64,000 nt of DNA, taken from Sphaerochaeta globosa str. Buddy (GTDB taxonomy: Bacteria > Spirochaetota > Spirochaetia > Sphaerochaetales > Sphaerochaetaceae). Every line of letters begins with the position of its first letter. Position 1 is the stretch's first letter. Positions 21,950 to 30,523 of this stretch are shown here, piece after piece. Location: NCBI RefSeq assembly GCF_000190435.1, contig NC_015152.1:1928458-1992457 (forward strand), in the 5' to 3' direction. The notes under the pieces are model-generated. The model saw only the letters and a list, made by a program, of their open reading frames with translations, ran no database searches and was not told the DNA's origin. Position numbers and translations under genes: made by a program.

Positions 21950-22417
21950 TTATAAAACTTGGCGGTAACCGAAGCGGATGTACTGCCTCACCATATCCCT
22001 CACTGATGCATCGATGGCCGACCCTTGCGCTGTAATCCAAGGAAGATAGGATCCTTCAACGAACACAATCCCCCTTGAGAAAAGGAATTCGTAGGAGAGA
22101 GACAGTGCAAACCCCAAACCAAGCTCATAGCCTACGGCATGCTCCCATCCCAGCTGGGCTTTCATACCCATGCCTATCATCAAAGGGGAAAAATGCCCAA
22201 AACGATAGAGCATCGTCGTTTGTACACTGGGTGTTTCAAACGAAGGCGAAGCCGATGGCAGTGAAAGAGCAAGGTTCTGCTCAAACGTTCGACTGAGCAT
22301 GCCTACTTCCAACCCGGTTGACATCGTCGACTGGGTTATGCCCACATACGGTCCAGCCTCCAGGGTGAAGCTTGCAAGCAGAAGAAGGATGAGCAGGGTT
22401 GCCTTAGCGTTTCTCAC
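21950..22417 (-). CDS. Small exported, probably outer-membrane, protein
   Basis: The protein has a signal peptide (hydrophobic residues about 7-19, cut near LEAG) and about 130 mature residues of alternating amphipathic strands with many glycines and aromatics, as in small outer-membrane barrels. I prefer the GTG at 22417, which has GGAGG 9 nt upstream, over a TTG at 22438. It overlaps the cmk-like gene by 14 bp, so it is coupled to that operon. No specific function can be read. Confidence 0.6.
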   Translation of the reverse strand: MRNAKATLLILLLLASFTLEAGPYVGITQSTMSTGLEVGMLSRTFEQNLALSLPSASPSFETPSVQTTMLYRFGHFSPLMIGMGMKAQLGWEHAVGYELGLGFALSLSYEFLFSRGIVFVEGSYLPWITAQGSAIDASVRDMVRQYIRFGYRQVL

Positions 22418-22928
22418 GAGCCTTGGCCTCCTTGACAATGAGGGCGGCGATTTGCTCGGGTTCCAACTCGGACGTATCGATTACCAAGTCCGCCACCGTT
22501 GTATCGCTGTTGTCTATGTTGTACAAGCGCAGGTATCGTGCACTGTCATTGGCATCACGCATTTGAGTCTGCTCCAGGCGCTCAGAGAGAGTCCCCCCTT
22601 CGCGCTGGGTTATCCTGCGCGCACGTTCGATGGAACTTGCGGTTAGATATACTTTGAGATCGGCTTGCTTGAGCATCCAAATGGCCAGGCGGCTGCCTAG
22701 AACACAGTCAGGCTGTGCGAGAGCCATCTCTACCTGCCTTTTGTCCACCTCAAGGTCGAACTCATCGCTTTCTTCCGCCATCTTGCAGAAAGTCCAGAAC
22801 TCGATCCCCTTCTCTTCACTGAGCGTACGGAACGTAAAATTAATCATGGGATATCCCAAATTCTCGGCCACCAACTGAGAGACCGTGGTATTTCCACAGC
22901 CGCTCTTTCCACTAATTGCAATGCGCAC
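22404..22928 (-). CDS. cmk: Cytidylate kinase-like protein (short type 2)
   Basis: A 174-residue P-loop nucleotide kinase, expected to phosphorylate CMP/dCMP. The N-terminus MRIAISGKSGCGNTTVSQL carries the Walker A loop (residues 7-15), with Asn in place of the usual Lys just before Thr-Thr. Later parts fit the short archaeal-type CMP kinases (DCVLGSRLAIWML, then ARRITQREGG). The K-to-N change in the loop is notable, since that lysine normally contacts phosphate. It lies 11 bp after yicC, a place often held by gmk in other bacteria. Confidence 0.75.
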   Translation of the reverse strand: MRIAISGKSGCGNTTVSQLVAENLGYPMINFTFRTLSEEKGIEFWTFCKMAEESDEFDLEVDKRQVEMALAQPDCVLGSRLAIWMLKQADLKVYLTASSIERARRITQREGGTLSERLEQTQMRDANDSARYLRLYNIDNSDTTVADLVIDTSELEPEQIAALIVKEAKAREKR

Positions 22929-22939
22929 GCTTTCCCCCG

Positions 22940-23809
22940 TTACTCAATGTTGCGGATTTGTTCACGAATATTTTCCAGACCATCCTTCATCTTAACAACC
23001 TGGATGTTCAGTTCAACCATCTGGCTCTTGCTTCCGATGGTATTTATCTCCCGATTCATCTCCTGACAGAGAAAGTCCAGGCGTTTACCGACCGGCTCTG
23101 ATCTTTCAAGCAGGGAGAAATACTCCTTCAGGTGTACGCCCAGACGCTTGATCTCCTCATGAACCGAATATTTGACGAGCATGACGGCAACTTCCTGCAA
23201 AATCCTGTTTTCGTCGTAGTTCTGATCACCAAGCATTTCCACAAAACGGGATCGCAAGGTATCCTTGACCATCTGCTCAAGCTCGTTCGCATGACTTTTT
23301 ATGACATCCAGACCTTCACTGACGACAGTGCCCAACCGAACCAGGTCTCGCTGGGTGGAAGACCCTTCGCGAACCTTGCTCTCCGAGAACTGTACAAGAG
23401 CTGCCTGCAGTGTTTCAAACAAGACCTGCCGATAGCGCTCGCTATCGTTGCCCTTCAAACTCACCAGCACCCCTTCACTTCCCAGATAATCAGAGAGTTG
23501 CGGCTTGAGGGCCTTGCCGCTGAGTGCTGCGATGGAAGCAAACGCTTCGGAATAATTCTTCACTGCTTGTTCATCGACATAAAGTTGTACGTCACTGGCC
23601 AAGTTCTTGACCCGAATGTTCACTTCCACGTGTCCGCGGCTGGCAAAATCGGTAATTTTTTTGTCGATTTCCATCTCATAGGGAGCAAGCATATACGGAA
23701 TATTGTGATTGATATCCAAATACCGATTGTTGTACGACTTCAGCTCCACGGCGAGCTGGAACTGCTCACCCACGGATTCACTGAATCCGTATCCGGTCAT
23801 GCTTTTCAT
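22940..23809 (-). CDS. yicC: YicC-family endoribonuclease
   Basis: YicC proteins act as endoribonucleases in RNA turnover. The start MKSMTGYGFSE is the hallmark N-terminus and has AGGAG upstream; it gives 289 residues, the family length. The C-terminal half contains RLDFLCQEMNREINTIGSKS, another diagnostic stretch. The ATG overlaps the murC stop by 4 bp. The gene is embedded in murC-yicC-cmk-outer membrane protein. Confidence 0.95.
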   Translation of the reverse strand: MKSMTGYGFSESVGEQFQLAVELKSYNNRYLDINHNIPYMLAPYEMEIDKKITDFASRGHVEVNIRVKNLASDVQLYVDEQAVKNYSEAFASIAALSGKALKPQLSDYLGSEGVLVSLKGNDSERYRQVLFETLQAALVQFSESKVREGSSTQRDLVRLGTVVSEGLDVIKSHANELEQMVKDTLRSRFVEMLGDQNYDENRILQEVAVMLVKYSVHEEIKRLGVHLKEYFSLLERSEPVGKRLDFLCQEMNREINTIGSKSQMVELNIQVVKMKDGLENIREQIRNIE

Positions 23810-25266
23810 GAATGACTCCTTCTTCGGCGGGCAATGCGCTCGCAAAGGAAACGATTATTACCCGCACCCATCGTAATACACAACCACCTCTCTTGCAACC
23901 AGAGCGAACCTAAGGCTTCGGCCGTTTGCTCGTCTTTTGCATAGGCACAGCGATTCGGCAGAAGAGAACCAACCTGGCGCACAAGATCCTCTGCAGGATC
24001 CTCAGCAGTGGGGCCATCCCCTCTGGCCGAAGCATACGTAGCTTGCACGATGAGCGCATCACACTGAGCAAGTTGTTCTACAAACTCGTGGTGAAATGCA
24101 AGGGTCCGACTAGCGGTATGAGGACAGAAAATCACAAGCATCTTATACCGGGGATAGCGTGCACGCAGCTCTTCCAAGGAAGTGTGAATTTCTGTCGGAT
24201 GGTGGGCATAGTCATCGATATACACCACCCCGTCCTGGGTAAACAGAACCTCGGTGCGACCGATGCATGCAGTATAGGAACGCAGATGCCGGGAAAGAGA
24301 GGCAACCAAGGTTGGCAGCACCTCATCGGTGATGAGGCCTTGATCCTGAACATAGAGCTTAGGCTCGGGACGATCGAGTATCATGGCCAAGGACAGGACC
24401 AACGCTCCGATGTGGTCACATACCAAGGCTTCGGCTTTGGCCTGGATGGTAAAGGGAAGGTCCTCCAATACGGCAAGTGTATATCGATCGGGGCCATTTC
24501 TCATAATTCTGAACGGTCCAGGGGCAGAAAAGCCATAGGCAACGACGGTGATGTCCTTACGATGGGCAAGCACATAGGCTGACAAGGCTGAGGCGCCCTC
24601 GTCGTCTGCGCAGTATAGGAAAATGCCCCCGCCCTTGAGGTTGGTGACCAACGATTCAAAACTCCGCTTAACCTGATCAATCGATTGGAAATAATCAGGA
24701 TGGTCATATTCAATGGAAGTAACCAATACAGCTCGCAAATCATAGGAAAGAAAGTGATCCTGATACTCGCACGCTTCAAAAAGAGCACACTCAGAACCAT
24801 AGTAGGGATAACGGTCAAGCCCGCTCTGGGAGGACCCATAGACTGCATAAAACGGGAATTGTGACTTCGTTGCCTGGCCAAGCAAATGGGATGCAACCGA
24901 ACATGTCGTCGTCTTGCCATGCGTGCCCGCCACCGCATAACTATCCTGGCGCTTCGTAAGAAGTGCGATGAAAGCCGGATACGAATACAGCATAAGATTC
25001 CTCTCGTTGGCTGCCTTGAGGATGGGTGTCGTCAGGGGATAGGCACTGCTGTAAATGACCGAGGTGATGTCGCTGCTCAACAAGCTTTCAGCAAAACCAA
25101 CATCACAAACCAGTCCATGGTTTGCAAGCAGGGCGTCGGTGAAGAAGAGTTCATCCCTATCACAGCCTCGTACCTGGCAGCCCATATGGGTAAGCAGGAC
25201 GGCAAGGCTAGCCATTCCTGTACCCTTCATCCCTACCAGATACCAACGCTGTGCTTGAAAATCCAT
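23806..25266 (-). CDS. murC: UDP-N-acetylmuramate--L-alanine ligase
   Basis: MurC adds L-Ala to UDP-MurNAc in peptidoglycan precursor synthesis. With start MDFQAQRWYLVG (GGGAG 6 nt upstream) it has 486 residues. The N-terminal Rossmann motif VGMKGTGMASLA is at about 11-22, the ATP loop GTHGKTTT at 114-121, SIEYDHPDYF follows, and DYAHHPTE occurs in the C-terminal third. A terminator-like hairpin (25288-25317) ends only about 22 nt before the start, so expression may depend on readthrough from the small zinc-protein gene. Confidence 0.93.
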   Translation of the reverse strand: MDFQAQRWYLVGMKGTGMASLAVLLTHMGCQVRGCDRDELFFTDALLANHGLVCDVGFAESLLSSDITSVIYSSAYPLTTPILKAANERNLMLYSYPAFIALLTKRQDSYAVAGTHGKTTTCSVASHLLGQATKSQFPFYAVYGSSQSGLDRYPYYGSECALFEACEYQDHFLSYDLRAVLVTSIEYDHPDYFQSIDQVKRSFESLVTNLKGGGIFLYCADDEGASALSAYVLAHRKDITVVAYGFSAPGPFRIMRNGPDRYTLAVLEDLPFTIQAKAEALVCDHIGALVLSLAMILDRPEPKLYVQDQGLITDEVLPTLVASLSRHLRSYTACIGRTEVLFTQDGVVYIDDYAHHPTEIHTSLEELRARYPRYKMLVIFCPHTASRTLAFHHEFVEQLAQCDALIVQATYASARGDGPTAEDPAEDLVRQVGSLLPNRCAYAKDEQTAEALGSLWLQERWLCITMGAGNNRFLCERIARRRRSHS

Positions 25267-25287
25267 ACCAACTCCCACTTTTTTCAT

Positions 25288-25317
25288 AAAAAAAAGACTG
25301 CCACAGAGGACAGTCTC
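25288..25317 (-). terminator. Terminator/attenuator between zinc-protein gene and murC
   Basis: Minus-strand stem AGACTGTCC/GGCAGTCT (one bulge) with a short loop, then eight T. It lies 17 bp after the small gene and inside the murC leader. Confidence 0.8.
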
Positions 25318-25334
25318 ATTCCCAACAGATGCTC

Positions 25335-25511
25335 TTAGTTGGATGCAGTTGCCTTGAGGTGGGCATTGCAAGGCTTGCAAATCTTGGTTTTCTGACCTTC
25401 AATGGTCACTTCATACATTACCTTGACTTCGGTTCTTTTGCAAACGGGGCACTGACCACGTCCATGGTTCAATTCGCTCCTGATCCCACTGCCTCTATGT
25501 GCTTTGGACAT
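25335..25511 (-). CDS. Small zinc-ribbon-like protein (58 residues)
   Basis: ATG at 25511 with AAGGAG 8 nt upstream opens a 58-residue frame ending TAA at 25335. The protein begins MSKAHRGSGIRSEL and has two CxxC knuckles, CPVC at 21-24 and CKPC at 45-48, a zinc-ribbon arrangement in a basic protein. It resembles small ribosome-associated zinc proteins but not L32, L33 or L36 specifically. It has the best promoter in the region and its own terminator, so it is probably well expressed. Function unknown; a nucleic-acid-binding role is inferred. Confidence 0.8.
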   Translation of the reverse strand: MSKAHRGSGIRSELNHGRGQCPVCKRTEVKVMYEVTIEGQKTKICKPCNAHLKATASN

Positions 25512-25532
25512 ATACTCTACTCCTTACAGGTT

Positions 25533-25579
25533 CAAACGTTCTACCGTTTGACTATATAGTGGTCATACGCGTGTGTCAA
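25533..25579 (-). promoter_or_regulatory. Strong promoter and start-site palindrome of the small zinc-protein gene
   Basis: TTGACA (25574-25579), 17 bp, TATAGT (25551-25556). Immediately downstream, CAAACG/CGTTTG (25533-25550) forms a 6-bp inverted repeat at the transcript start, either an operator or a 5' mRNA hairpin. Confidence 0.75.
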
Positions 25580-25590
25580 GTAGAGTAATT

Positions 25591-26667
25591 TCATAGAATC
25601 AAGGTCGCCCCGAGAAGGAGAACCGCCCGCTCGGAAGTAGGGGTTTTGGAGTACCACGCAGTAGGCCAGCTGCAGCCGATGCTGACTTTTACGGTATCGA
25701 ACTGGGCATTGAGGGCGAGCGTCTGACTGCCTTGTGCCAGCGAAACTTTCAAAAGGTCCGACGGTGTTGGTTTGTCTTCACTATACCCCATCTGCAGGTT
25801 GACCGACCAGGTGGGCAGCAGCTGTAATTTCGCTGAAAGGCCCAGCCTCAGCTGCCGATCCTGATCGGATCCGAGATTTACAAAATCCAAGGCACCCTGA
25901 AATTTCAAAAGATGCAACTGATTACTCCCATCGTAGGTGGCAGAGCTGAATGAAAAACCCCAGTCGAGCGTCTTCAGCAGGGAATCGACACTGATTACCA
26001 ACGACTGTTCGGCACTGCCGTAGGCCAGTTGGTCGCTTACCACTCCCATTTTGAACCACTCGTAATCCAAGAGAATCCCCACTCCGAAGGTTACACTGGA
26101 GACATCGTCCACAGCCTCGTACCTGCCCACAGCGGTCTCGACGAAGTAATCGAGGAAAATCCTATCGTCCATGATCGTCACCAAGCTTCGTTCGCTGGTG
26201 GCAACAGCCCGGGCTGTTACCCCGAAGGAAAAAACGGAACGGGAAATAGCCCAGTCAAACTGGAATAGTGTTTTTCTCTTTCCCGTGTAATCAGACGCAT
26301 TCGAATAAATCTGACGGTCCTCCAAGGAATTCCTATTCTGTATTGAAAAAGCCAGGTTGCCTGAAATGAAGGATAGTGACCAATCCGCTACGGGATTTTC
26401 CAATCGTGTCGCAAATGGGGAAAGGGTATAGTTGGAAGCAACCAATGCATCCTGAAAGCGAAACGAGGACAAGAACGAAGTATCCTTGTCTTTGTCCTGA
26501 CCCAACAAGGCAGGGTTTGCCAGAAAAGAATCACTTTCATAATCGAGTGAAAGTCCGGCATTTGCCATACCCCAGGATGAGCTGGAGGCCAAGTCCAAAG
26601 GAAGCGAGAAAGCCGCTGATACACACAGCATCAGCACAAGACTGCTCAGCATCATCCTTTTGGCCAT
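25591..26667 (-). CDS. Exported protein, probable outer-membrane barrel
   Basis: The protein has 358 residues with a signal peptide (residues 1-21, cut near AFS-LPLD). The mature N-terminus, with SSSSWGMANAGLS and DSFLANPALLG, resembles the start of PorV/FadL-like spirochaete outer-membrane proteins. The rest is an alternating strand pattern ending in VLLLGATLIL. I do not recognise a specific family. It stands alone, downstream of the divergent murE promoter region and upstream of the zinc-protein gene. Confidence 0.7.
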   Translation of the reverse strand: MAKRMMLSSLVLMLCVSAAFSLPLDLASSSSWGMANAGLSLDYESDSFLANPALLGQDKDKDTSFLSSFRFQDALVASNYTLSPFATRLENPVADWSLSFISGNLAFSIQNRNSLEDRQIYSNASDYTGKRKTLFQFDWAISRSVFSFGVTARAVATSERSLVTIMDDRIFLDYFVETAVGRYEAVDDVSSVTFGVGILLDYEWFKMGVVSDQLAYGSAEQSLVISVDSLLKTLDWGFSFSSATYDGSNQLHLLKFQGALDFVNLGSDQDRQLRLGLSAKLQLLPTWSVNLQMGYSEDKPTPSDLLKVSLAQGSQTLALNAQFDTVKVSIGCSWPTAWYSKTPTSERAVLLLGATLIL

Positions 26668-26760
26668 CGTCTTACCTCACTTTGACTAAGCATAACAAAA
26701 AACAGAACAACAAGCCACCAGTTGTTTGCAAAGCTTGAGAATGTGAAGTACCATAAGGCA

Positions 26761-28242
26761 ATGAAAACCCTACGAACCTTACTGGAGGCTATCGGCATTG
26801 ATTCTACGCCGCAGAACGCCTCCATACTCATTGAAACCATAAGCCAGCACTCCAAGCAATGCACGGCAAACTCTGTCTTCTTCGCCTTCCACGGCTTGCG
26901 TACCGATGGAATCCTCTATATTCAGGAAGCAATCGAGCATGGGGCTGTCTGCATTATCAGCGACCAGAACCTCTCAAATCTGAACCTGCCTGCCAAGGTT
27001 CAGTGGCACCAGGTCCATAAACCCCATACAGCCTTTGCTCTCATGTGCTCTGCACTCAATGACAATTCCCAGGACAAGCTGGGCATCATCGGGGTTAGCG
27101 GTACCGACGGCAAAAGCACTACGTGTGATTACCTCTACCAAATCCTTGAAGCAAACGGAGTCAAAACAGGGTTGCTCACTACTGTCAGCATGGATGACGG
27201 ATCGGGAAAAGTCGACTCTCCTTTCCGCCAGAGCACACCAGAACCAGACCAGTTGCATGTATTCTTGCGCCGTTGCGTTGAAAACAAGGTGCAGAAAGTA
27301 ATACTGGAGTGTACCAGTCATGCCCTGAGCGATACATTCGACCGCCTGGCCGGCATACACTTTGAAGCCGCTATCGTCACCAAGGTCACCAGTGAGCACT
27401 TGGAGTTTCACCATAGTCTTGAGGAGTATACCCAGGCCAAGGTAAATCTGGTTCGGTCGCTCAAGGATGGCGGCCTGTTTGTAACCAGCACCGACAACGC
27501 AAAACTCGAAGCTTTCACAGCCGAACTCAGAAGCACCACCAAAGCCTTGATACTGGGAAAGGATGTGATGCTGCGGATTGAATTCATGGGGTACCAGGGA
27601 GTGGTGGTCGATATTCTGGATCAACGCATCCAGACCTCGCTTTTGCTTCCCAGTCTGGCAACCAACGCCCTGTTGGCAACCTTCTGTGCAAGCCATTTGC
27701 TTGGAATCGATGTCACCGCATTGCTTGTGCTGATCAAGAGCCTCAAGCCGGTCAAGGGCAGGATGCAACAGATTGAGAACACATTGGGAGTGAGGACCAT
27801 CATTGACTTCGCCCATACCGCCGACGCCTACGATGGAATCTTTTTCTTCGCCAAACGGACCTGCGAAGGAGGTGACATCATCGCCGTATTCGGGTGTGCC
27901 GGAGAGCGTGACACATCCAAGCGATCTCCGATGGGAAAGATTGCAAACAAGTATTGTTCGACTATCATTCTCACAGAAGAAGACCCCAGGCGCGAAGGCA
28001 ATCAGCAGATTTTTTCTGACCTACGCTTCCATATGAACAATCCTGCTTGCAGGGTATGGGAGATTGAAAGCCGCCGTGAGGCGATCCGCAAGGCTGTATC
28101 AATCGCCCAATGTGGTGACACCCTCCTTTTTTTGGGCAAAGGCCATGAAAAAACCATTGAGCGCATGGATGGGAAAATCAGCTGGGATGAAGTCGAGGAA
28201 GTAGAAATGGCGCTTCGACTTGAAGAGGAAAAACGGAAATGA
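26761..28242 (+). CDS. murE: UDP-N-acetylmuramoyl-tripeptide synthetase (MurE family)
   Basis: MurE adds the third amino acid to UDP-MurNAc-L-Ala-D-Glu. From MKTLRTLLEAIG it has 493 residues. The ATP loop GVSGTDGKSTT is at about 111-121, STPEPDQLHVFL follows with the family threonine-proline contact, and GCAGERDTSKRS is the late conserved loop. The substrate-selecting motif DNPR of diaminopimelate-adding enzymes is here EDPRREG, so the third residue may be ornithine or lysine instead. It starts the operon murE-ddl-dinB. A candidate promoter TTGCAA-17-TACCAT ends 6 nt before the ATG. Confidence 0.9.
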   Translation: MKTLRTLLEAIGIDSTPQNASILIETISQHSKQCTANSVFFAFHGLRTDGILYIQEAIEHGAVCIISDQNLSNLNLPAKVQWHQVHKPHTAFALMCSALNDNSQDKLGIIGVSGTDGKSTTCDYLYQILEANGVKTGLLTTVSMDDGSGKVDSPFRQSTPEPDQLHVFLRRCVENKVQKVILECTSHALSDTFDRLAGIHFEAAIVTKVTSEHLEFHHSLEEYTQAKVNLVRSLKDGGLFVTSTDNAKLEAFTAELRSTTKALILGKDVMLRIEFMGYQGVVVDILDQRIQTSLLLPSLATNALLATFCASHLLGIDVTALLVLIKSLKPVKGRMQQIENTLGVRTIIDFAHTADAYDGIFFFAKRTCEGGDIIAVFGCAGERDTSKRSPMGKIANKYCSTIILTEEDPRREGNQQIFSDLRFHMNNPACRVWEIESRREAIRKAVSIAQCGDTLLFLGKGHEKTIERMDGKISWDEVEEVEMALRLEEEKRK

Positions 28243-29321
28243 CCATAGCCCTTGTCTATGGGGGAAGATCCACCGAACATGAGGTTTCCATCGCCAGTGC
28301 CCTGACAGTGCATCGGGCCCTCAAGCAAGCAGGGTATCGTGTACTGCTTATCGCCATCGCCCTCGATGGCCGATGGTATTTACAGCCCAATCTGCTAAGC
28401 AAATCAATCGATGCCACCATACCCATTCATGCAGTTCCTGGTCTCGGACTCTACGTCCAAGATGCAAAACTGGATATCGATGCAGTCTTTGCCACCACCC
28501 ACGGTTATGGCGGCGAGGATGGAAACCTGCAAGGCCTATGCATGCTCTGCCGTCTCCCGCTCTGCGGCTGCGATACCGTCTCAAGTGCCTTAGGCATGCA
28601 TAAGCATTTGGCTTCTGAACTGTTTATGCAGGCACTCATACCCACCGTACCGACGCTGTTGCTGGATAAGAATGCCGTGCAGCAGGTTGAGTATACTACA
28701 CTTCTAGAGCGTGCCCGAAGCACCCTTGGCCCTGATCTATTTGTAAAACCTGAGAACAGTGGCTCTTCGGTAGGCGTCAGTGCCTTGAAGGACTGTGACG
28801 CCAAGGCCTTGCAGCAGGCTGTTGAACTGGCTCGCCGTTACAGCGAGCGTGTTCTTATCCAGCTGCTCATCCATCCCTTGCAAGAATTGGAAACCGCAGT
28901 TCTGGAAACCCGGGACAAAGGTCTTGTGGTGGCAGGACCGGGCTTGGTGATCGACCCCGCCAAGGAAACAGTAGGCTTTCTCAGCTACGAACACAAGTAC
29001 GGCAAGGTCGATACCGCCCATATCAGAATCCCCAGCGGTCTTGATGACACAACTGAAACAATCATTAAAAACTATGCACGCAAGGCATTCTTGGCAATAA
29101 AGGGTGATGGGTATGCACGCATCGATTTTTTTGTCAGTGAAAATCGGATCTATCTCAATGAAATCAATACCTCTCCCGGCTTGACCGACACAAGTCACTA
29201 CCCCGCCCTGCTTGCCTCGGTTGGCTATGACCTTTCTTCTGTCTGCAAGCATTTGGTGGAAAATGCCTTACTGCGCAATGCACAAGAAAAGCTGCGAATC
29301 TATACACCACCCGGATATTGA
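28239..29321 (+). CDS. ddl: D-alanine--D-alanine ligase
   Basis: Ddl makes the D-Ala-D-Ala dipeptide for peptidoglycan precursors. The 360-residue protein has LVYGGRSTEHEVS at the N-terminus, YGGEDGNLQGL for substrate binding, the KPENSGSSVGV ATP-grasp loop, and NEINTSPGLTDTSHYP near the C-terminus. It overlaps murE by 4 bp. Neighbour context confirms a cell-wall role. Confidence 0.95.
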   Translation: MTIALVYGGRSTEHEVSIASALTVHRALKQAGYRVLLIAIALDGRWYLQPNLLSKSIDATIPIHAVPGLGLYVQDAKLDIDAVFATTHGYGGEDGNLQGLCMLCRLPLCGCDTVSSALGMHKHLASELFMQALIPTVPTLLLDKNAVQQVEYTTLLERARSTLGPDLFVKPENSGSSVGVSALKDCDAKALQQAVELARRYSERVLIQLLIHPLQELETAVLETRDKGLVVAGPGLVIDPAKETVGFLSYEHKYGKVDTAHIRIPSGLDDTTETIIKNYARKAFLAIKGDGYARIDFFVSENRIYLNEINTSPGLTDTSHYPALLASVGYDLSSVCKHLVENALLRNAQEKLRIYTPPGY

Positions 29322-30523
29322 TGCGTATGGAAACTGTAATTTTTCATGTTGATATGGATGCGTTCTATGCCTCGGTGGAGGTTTTGGACAACCCTGACTA
29401 CCAGGGCAAATGCCTGCTTATCGGGGGCATGAGCAAACGCTCGGTAGTCGCTACGGCCAGCTACGAAGCGAGAGTCTTTGGCGTCCATTCGGCGATGCCC
29501 ATGGCTCAAGCTCTGCGCCTTTGCCCGCAGGCCGTTGTAGTGAAGCCGCGTATGCAGCGCTACAGCGAGATGAGCAAGCAAGTCATGGAAATTCTTAAAA
29601 CGTTTTCCAGCGATGTCCATCAAATTTCCATCGACGAAGCCTTTCTGGATATGAGTGGGACCTTCCGGCTTTTCGGCCTTCCGCGTGAAGCGGGGAAGCT
29701 ACTCAAAGAAAAAGTCAACAAGGAGACTGGACTAACCATCTCGGTAGGAATTGGGCCAAGCAGATTCATAGCCAAAATGGCCAGTGACTACGACAAACCC
29801 GACGGACTCTGCAGGGTTTCAATCGGCAAGGAAATTGCCTTCATCGATGCAGTGGGACTCAAAAAGCTTTGGGGGGTGGGAAAGGTTACCCAACAGGTAT
29901 TGGCAAAGCATCACATCACCAGCACGCAGGAACTGAGAACCTACAGCGAGCAAACACTGCAAGCATTGTTTGGTCGCAGCATGGGACAGTTTCTGTACCT
30001 TGCCTGCCGGGGTGTCGATCCGGGCATTTTCAAGGAAGAGGCGAAAAGTCATTCCATCTCCACCGAGACGACCTTTGCCGAGGATGTCTGTACTACTGAG
30101 GCACTTGAGCAGACGCTCTTGTGGATGAGCCATGACGTCATGTTCCGCGCACTCGAGGAGAAGCAAATGGGACGCACTGTCGGACTGAAACTGCGGTTTC
30201 CCGACTTTACCACCCTCACGGTGCAAGTTACCCCTCAGTCGACCATCTACAGTGCAGAACAGATATTCCAGTATGCAAAAACTCTTTTGCTGCAAAAATG
30301 GAGTGAGGGCAAACCGGTACGTCTCATAGGCCTCGGAATGTATCAGTTGTACAGCGGAGAGCGGCCGCTGCAGGAAGAGCTTTTCCAAGATCCTTATGAG
30401 AAAAAGAGAAAACTGGAGCAAGTTGTCCTGAAGTTGCATAAAGAAGGAAAGCAGGTTGTCAAAGCGACCAACCTGGAACGAAAGAGCGAAATGCCGGATA
30501 CCAATGGCAGCCCTCTTGCATAA
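29321..30523 (+). CDS. dinB: DNA polymerase IV (Y family)
   Basis: An error-prone translesion polymerase of 400 residues. Metal ligands are in FHVDMDAFYASVE (Asp11) and SIDEAFLD (Asp105, Glu106), and the helix-hairpin-helix region KLWGVGKVT follows. The ddl stop and the ATG share one base (TGATG), so translation is coupled. The in-frame TTG at 29318 is less likely. No LexA box is obvious in the adjacent sequence. A second ATG two codons later is possible. Confidence 0.95.
   Translation: MRMETVIFHVDMDAFYASVEVLDNPDYQGKCLLIGGMSKRSVVATASYEARVFGVHSAMPMAQALRLCPQAVVVKPRMQRYSEMSKQVMEILKTFSSDVHQISIDEAFLDMSGTFRLFGLPREAGKLLKEKVNKETGLTISVGIGPSRFIAKMASDYDKPDGLCRVSIGKEIAFIDAVGLKKLWGVGKVTQQVLAKHHITSTQELRTYSEQTLQALFGRSMGQFLYLACRGVDPGIFKEEAKSHSISTETTFAEDVCTTEALEQTLLWMSHDVMFRALEEKQMGRTVGLKLRFPDFTTLTVQVTPQSTIYSAEQIFQYAKTLLLQKWSEGKPVRLIGLGMYQLYSGERPLQEELFQDPYEKKRKLEQVVLKLHKEGKQVVKATNLERKSEMPDTNGSPLA

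Follow-up and report, generated by a model that had tools for sequence, protein, structure and literature searches.

What is the gene of only 58 codons that stands in front of murC in Sphaerochaeta globosa str. Buddy, and why does it have a strong promoter ahead of it and a terminator behind it? We studied this locus within a window of 64,000 nucleotides (NC_015152.1, positions 1,928,458 to 1,992,457; positions in Table 1 are counted from its first letter). The first-pass annotation had recognised a small zinc protein here and had left two readings side by side: that murC, yicC and cmk rely on readthrough from its promoter, or that the small protein regulates them. The homologues, codon usage and gene neighbourhoods described below suggest that the gene probably encodes an unnamed, lineage-specific ribosomal protein, a candidate belonging to a family that includes TP0214 of Treponema pallidum.

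The small gene and its expression signals

The open reading frame begins with ATG, and its product carries two cysteine pairs, C21xxC24 and C45xxC48. It can be taken as a real gene, as had been proposed, because it has homologues and a ribosomal protein-like codon usage; a ribosome-binding site stands in front of it. Its promoter, which had been described as the best in the region, is indeed the top-scoring of seven sigma-70 sites in 22000-30000. Since the scan as a whole was without enrichment (seven sites against 6.0 expected), the weight of this promoter comes from its conservation at equal score in all 16 relatives scanned, which are those with murC 3' of the family gene.

Table 1. Features of the small-gene locus and the genes 3' of it (window coordinates)
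Feature	Position	Strand	Basis
Small gene, TP0214 family member, ribosomal protein candidate	25335..25511	-	ORF, homologues, codon usage, rplQ linkage, uL24-ribbon likeness
Shine-Dalgarno AAGGAG	25520..25525	-	read from sequence
Sigma-70 promoter TTGACA-17-TATAGT	25551..25579	-	11/12; equal score in 16/16 relatives scanned
Intrinsic terminator, small gene/murC gap	25286..25317	-	stem 25317-25294 and T-run; hairpins in five folded relatives
Palindrome CAAACG-N6-CGTTTG	25533..25550	.	exact; adjoins -10 box
murC	23806..25266	-	best model match; start 25266 inferred from ribosome site
YicC/YloC endoribonuclease gene	22940..23845	-	TIGR00255, above NCBI cut-off
(d)CMP kinase gene, archaeal-type	22404..22928	-	TIGR02173, above NCBI cut-off

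The terminator that had been placed ahead of murC is likewise borne out. Its hairpin (-12.4 kcal/mol, z -3.46) was equalled by one of 200 shuffles and its 3' end lies about 20 bases ahead of murC, and the five relatives that were folded likewise give hairpins (z -2.20 to -3.74). In L013 the sequence of the stem is altered and its pairing is kept. Terminator-like sites in the region are mildly more numerous than in shuffled sequence (12 vs 7.5, sd 3.2). The palindrome reported at the start site is a perfect one that abuts the -10 box, and this part of the earlier description stands. Its reading as an operator or regulon motif was rejected, as the genome holds a single exact copy. Among the 46 relatives it is exact, by eye, only in the closest three (L002-L004), and within the window one site with at most one mismatch was found vs 0.23 expected. 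The leader of the small gene, with an assumed start site, has no stable fold (z +1.02).

Of the three genes that follow, murC is identified by a model that is the top match of its protein, yet scores 259.6 bits vs the NCBI cut-off of 335.1; three Mur ligase Pfam domains exceed their cut-offs in the same protein. In the window, no second promoter of at least 8/12 lies between the start of the small gene and 130 bases past its stop. Isolated 8/12 sites occur in this interval at differing positions in four of the 16 relatives (L004, L011, L012, and L015), and the sigma-70 search, which misses other promoter classes, found none at a shared position ahead of murC. A murC start is possible within 30 bases of the T-run in 12 of 14 relatives with a measured T-run; the distance is larger in L007 and L012, and L020 and L024 are without a run of six T.

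As no shared second promoter was seen, readthrough is the simplest supply of murC-yicC-cmk, and these genes are probably fed from the small-gene promoter by a fraction of polymerases that would pass the terminator. The rpsU-dnaG-rpoD operon of Escherichia coli has a comparable layout, in which a small ribosomal protein gene precedes a terminator and the weaker-expressed genes beyond it are reached by readthrough. The two cases differ in that other proteins are encoded in E. coli, and in that readthrough in S. globosa is a prediction.

The TP0214 family and its genomic neighbourhood

One scan of GTDB contigs, which reaches close relatives only, returned 46 relatives, all of them spirochaete-titled. 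In the 47-row alignment of the family, M1, K3, A4, H5, R6, G7, G9, R18, C21, P22, K30, E34, and K46 are invariant. When the comparison is widened to 99 distinct sequences, from which L229 (G185) is absent, 86 have the N-terminus MSKAHRG, and the other 13 vary at position 2 or 4. These proteins have a median pI of 9.9, with values below 8 in three. The CxxC...CxxC form is found in 92 of the 99, and in seven Cys-poor members, from at least three lineages, CPxTG replaces the first pair and the second pair is gone. No Pfam or NCBIfam model matches the window protein at its cut-off, and the 47-row family gave scattered weak matches to them, the best among the matches listed having E values of 0.0011 and 0.00093.

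The family profile had hits in 171 of the 392 phylum genomes searched, or 168 after removing three uL24 genes, which were also the only matches outside the class of S. globosa (G001, G067, and G074). The family is present in 175 of the 248 class genomes, as a single copy in 174; G441 is the sole genome with two matches. At E 0.001 there is no match in 73 of the 248; the phylum-wide search lists 14 genomes of f5, a group presumed to be Borreliaceae, and all 14 are without one. The family therefore appears to be dispensable to some members of the class. A diverged copy after rplQ was looked for by eye at seven loci of match-less genomes (L150, L151, L155, and L157, with L152, L153, and L156 on the other strand), and no family-like ORF was seen there, the sequence of L152 stopping about 100 bases past rplQ.

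Beyond its presence, the family has a recurrent position. In 52 of 79 genomes, rplQ is followed within 1 kb by the gene in the same orientation. This sample began as 80 genomes chosen among about 150 with listed coordinates, less one without an rplQ match, and separate contigs were scored as unlinked. This linkage is complete in four groups (26/26 in f3, 11/11 in f4, 11/11 in f8, and 4/4 in f12), in which the group of Treponema is included, and was found in none of the 27 genomes of other groups, among them the nine of S. globosa's own family. In T. pallidum (G056) the order is uS13, uS11, rpoA, rplQ, family gene, grpE, and dnaK, with names assigned by eye and from papers, and the placement right after rplQ and before grpE identifies the family member of this species as TP0214; in L026 and L030, rpoA and rplQ were assigned by model match. 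We propose that the family gene closes the alpha ribosomal operon in these four groups; in the family of S. globosa it has a strong promoter and a terminator of its own.

The codon adaptation of the small gene (0.762) falls inside the range of 26 ribosomal protein genes of the same genome (0.638-0.826, leave-one-out). The ORFs of the window have a median of 0.63 (n=51), two of them reaching the value of the small gene, as do 33 of 5000 synonymous draws. Both this value and the rplQ linkage are typical of ribosomal proteins without defining them.

Likeness to the uL24 ribbon and comparison with bL38

The nearest resemblance that we found to a known ribosomal protein is to the C-terminal zinc ribbon of uL24 (PF17136). 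HHalign aligned the family with 25 spirochaete uL24 tails at 70.1% and a score of 24.1, above the maximum of 21.6 among 200 Cys-preserving column shuffles. With 28 distinct tails from 44 loci the value rises to 91.6% (score 31.2 vs a maximum of 24.1 in 200 shuffles), a figure that is raised because three of these tails, from outside the class, had been preselected by the family profile itself. Whole uL24 gave 43.8%, and the controls gave 9.7% with a score of 18.3 for uS14 and 0.7% for uS4. A general similarity among zinc ribbons may account for some of this likeness. PF17136 matches ten of 47 family members at E <=0.1 (best 0.0034).

Common to the two are CxxC, a hairpin, and the motif K-V-[RK]-x-C-K-x-C, as well as an occurrence both with and without cysteines. 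They differ in that the family is without the N-terminal (KOW) part of uL24 and has a basic tail of its own; the S10-spc location of uL24 is likewise not that of the 58-residue protein. Above its cut-off, PF17136 marks a uL24 gene in all 30 genomes searched, and that of S. globosa (C1:3072540-3072728) lies apart from the small gene. As uL24 is also present in these genomes, the family would be a detached paralogue rather than a split uL24. The split itself was rejected, since uL24 is full length in S. globosa, T. pallidum, and Borrelia and in the 13 genes read (from 30 loci, plus strand only). In T. pallidum, only a single zinc-ligand cysteine out of four survives in TP0214, and the C-terminal ribbon of its uL24 likewise retains one out of four (L145:5718-5915, L242).

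Another small ribosomal protein of spirochaetes invites comparison, namely bL38 of Borrelia (PDB 8fmw chain Ai), which shares with the family a length of about 55 residues and a class-wide occurrence. The BB0162 gene, located in an f5 genome, was confirmed by its match to this chain. An orthologue with 63% identity to BB0162 is present in S. globosa (C1:2104584-2104739), and matches at E <=0.1 in 225 of 248 class genomes, S. globosa included, indicate that bL38 is class-wide and no oddity of Borrelia. The small protein as bL38 was rejected because of this separate orthologue and an HHalign value of 0.5% between the two families. DUF4295, which we take to be Fjo bL38, matched none of 198 genomes. 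The Borrelia protein (BB0162) was identified only through a ribosome structure and mass spectrometry (PMC10618245).

An AlphaFold model of the small protein, with a pLDDT of 86.4 that drops in the N-terminal tail, has strands at 33-37 and 40-44 and a helix at 46-57, and its layout was compared with that of a treble clef (zinc knuckle, hairpin, and a helix bearing the second cysteine pair). Its fold matches are weak and within the range of common zinc folds (best Foldseek E 0.098 in the PDB, best VIA Z 3.7); they include GATA-type fingers (Z ~3) and eukaryotic and archaeal ribosomal zinc proteins, and bL38 is not among the matches listed. A single-sequence model of a Cys-poor member reached a pLDDT of 74. 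Sequence searches of the PDB gave best E values of 1.6 and 0.031 or none, and found no ribosome structure of a family member. The only spirochaete ribosome structure that our searches showed is from Borrelia, whose listed genomes lack the gene, so the family protein would have been missed there.

We hypothesize that the basic N-terminal tail, with its MSKAHRG in most members, is likely to lie on rRNA, and that the part behind it forms a small zinc ribbon or treble clef resembling the C-terminal ribbon of uL24. We infer ribosome binding and a place on one of the subunits, with predicted zinc binding in the Cys-rich members. A more specific history is quite possible, and we put it forward tentatively: an extra structural ribosomal protein would have arisen from a detached, duplicated uL24 C-terminal ribbon that gained a new rRNA-binding tail, old in the class, shed by Borreliaceae, repeatedly losing its zinc site, and represented in T. 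pallidum by TP0214.

TP0214 and the rival readings

NSAF may flatter short proteins. On that measure, one proteome study places TP0214 at the top of a list of 50 proteins, at 19.6, as uncharacterised (PMC5015957), while in a later proteome TPANIC_0214 is outside the highly abundant set (PMC10600179). A third source gives it as higher in rabbits than in culture (log2 1.28), along with all 27 genes of the large ribosomal protein operon, which it ends at 0213 (PMC8525777). TP0214 has been counted among T. pallidum miniproteins (PMC9200625), and in print it is described as uncharacterised, a miniprotein, or an antimicrobial-peptide candidate (PMC5015957, PMC9200625, and PMC10600179). The main texts of PMC12687308, PMC12223175, and PMC11668736 do not mention it, and a search of the open-licence literature, supplementary files being outside its scope, found no ribosomal role for it. 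TP0214 is of the family and next after rplQ, and differs from the S. globosa protein in its Cys-poor form. New class-wide ribosomal proteins are rare; if our reading is true, TP0214, which one study ranked first in abundance in the syphilis agent, would gain a function, and an antimicrobial-peptide candidate of T. pallidum may turn out to belong to the ribosome.

We counted against a ribosomal role the unlinked groups, the absence from f5, the weak PDB and fold matches, and the conflict over TPANIC_0214 abundance. Some of this would suit a ribosome-associated, non-structural factor for assembly, hibernation, or stress, found on some ribosomes only: absence from 73 class genomes and conflicting abundance reports are in keeping with it, and linkage, charge, and codon bias fit it equally well. 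However, a near-constant single copy and ribosomal protein-like codon usage suit a stoichiometric component, and exchange between forms with and without zinc is a familiar trait of structural ribosomal proteins, so that we consider such a factor unlikely. Because the alpha operon holds rpoA, an RNA-polymerase role also fits the rplQ linkage. A small polymerase-bound or nucleic-acid-binding zinc protein placed after rpoA-rplQ would agree with the position of rpoA two genes upstream in T. pallidum and with the GATA-type fingers among the weak fold matches, but the likeness to the uL24 ribbon and, by eye, the ribosomal identity of the remaining genes in the T. pallidum stretch make it improbable.

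Regulation of murC-yicC-cmk by attenuation, through the small protein or its leader, would draw on the conserved terminator and on the lack of a common second promoter, and is nevertheless very improbable. Homologues do exist, in a widespread family, but murC is next in only 16 of the 46 loci of the close-relative scan; the other 30 were looked over as ORF lists, some of which stop short of the following gene. Other loci carry M48 peptidase genes (models tested in L021 and L029, others judged by size and likeness) or yicC genes after the family gene, the leader has no stable fold, and the palindrome is unconserved. With most homologues elsewhere, after rplQ, the readthrough option stands and that of regulation by the small protein is not supported. 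The murC linkage is local rather than general, and the ribosomal reading remains the one that we prefer for the small gene.

Two further observations concern gene order. In L016-L019 and L041, by eye, yicC and a cmk-sized gene come after the family gene with no murC between. Beside the small gene in the window, the interval 25591-29321 holds a 358-residue gene without a Pfam or NCBIfam match (25591-26667), a divergently oriented murE (26722-28242), and, after murE, a gene that by eye resembles a D-Ala-D-Ala ligase.
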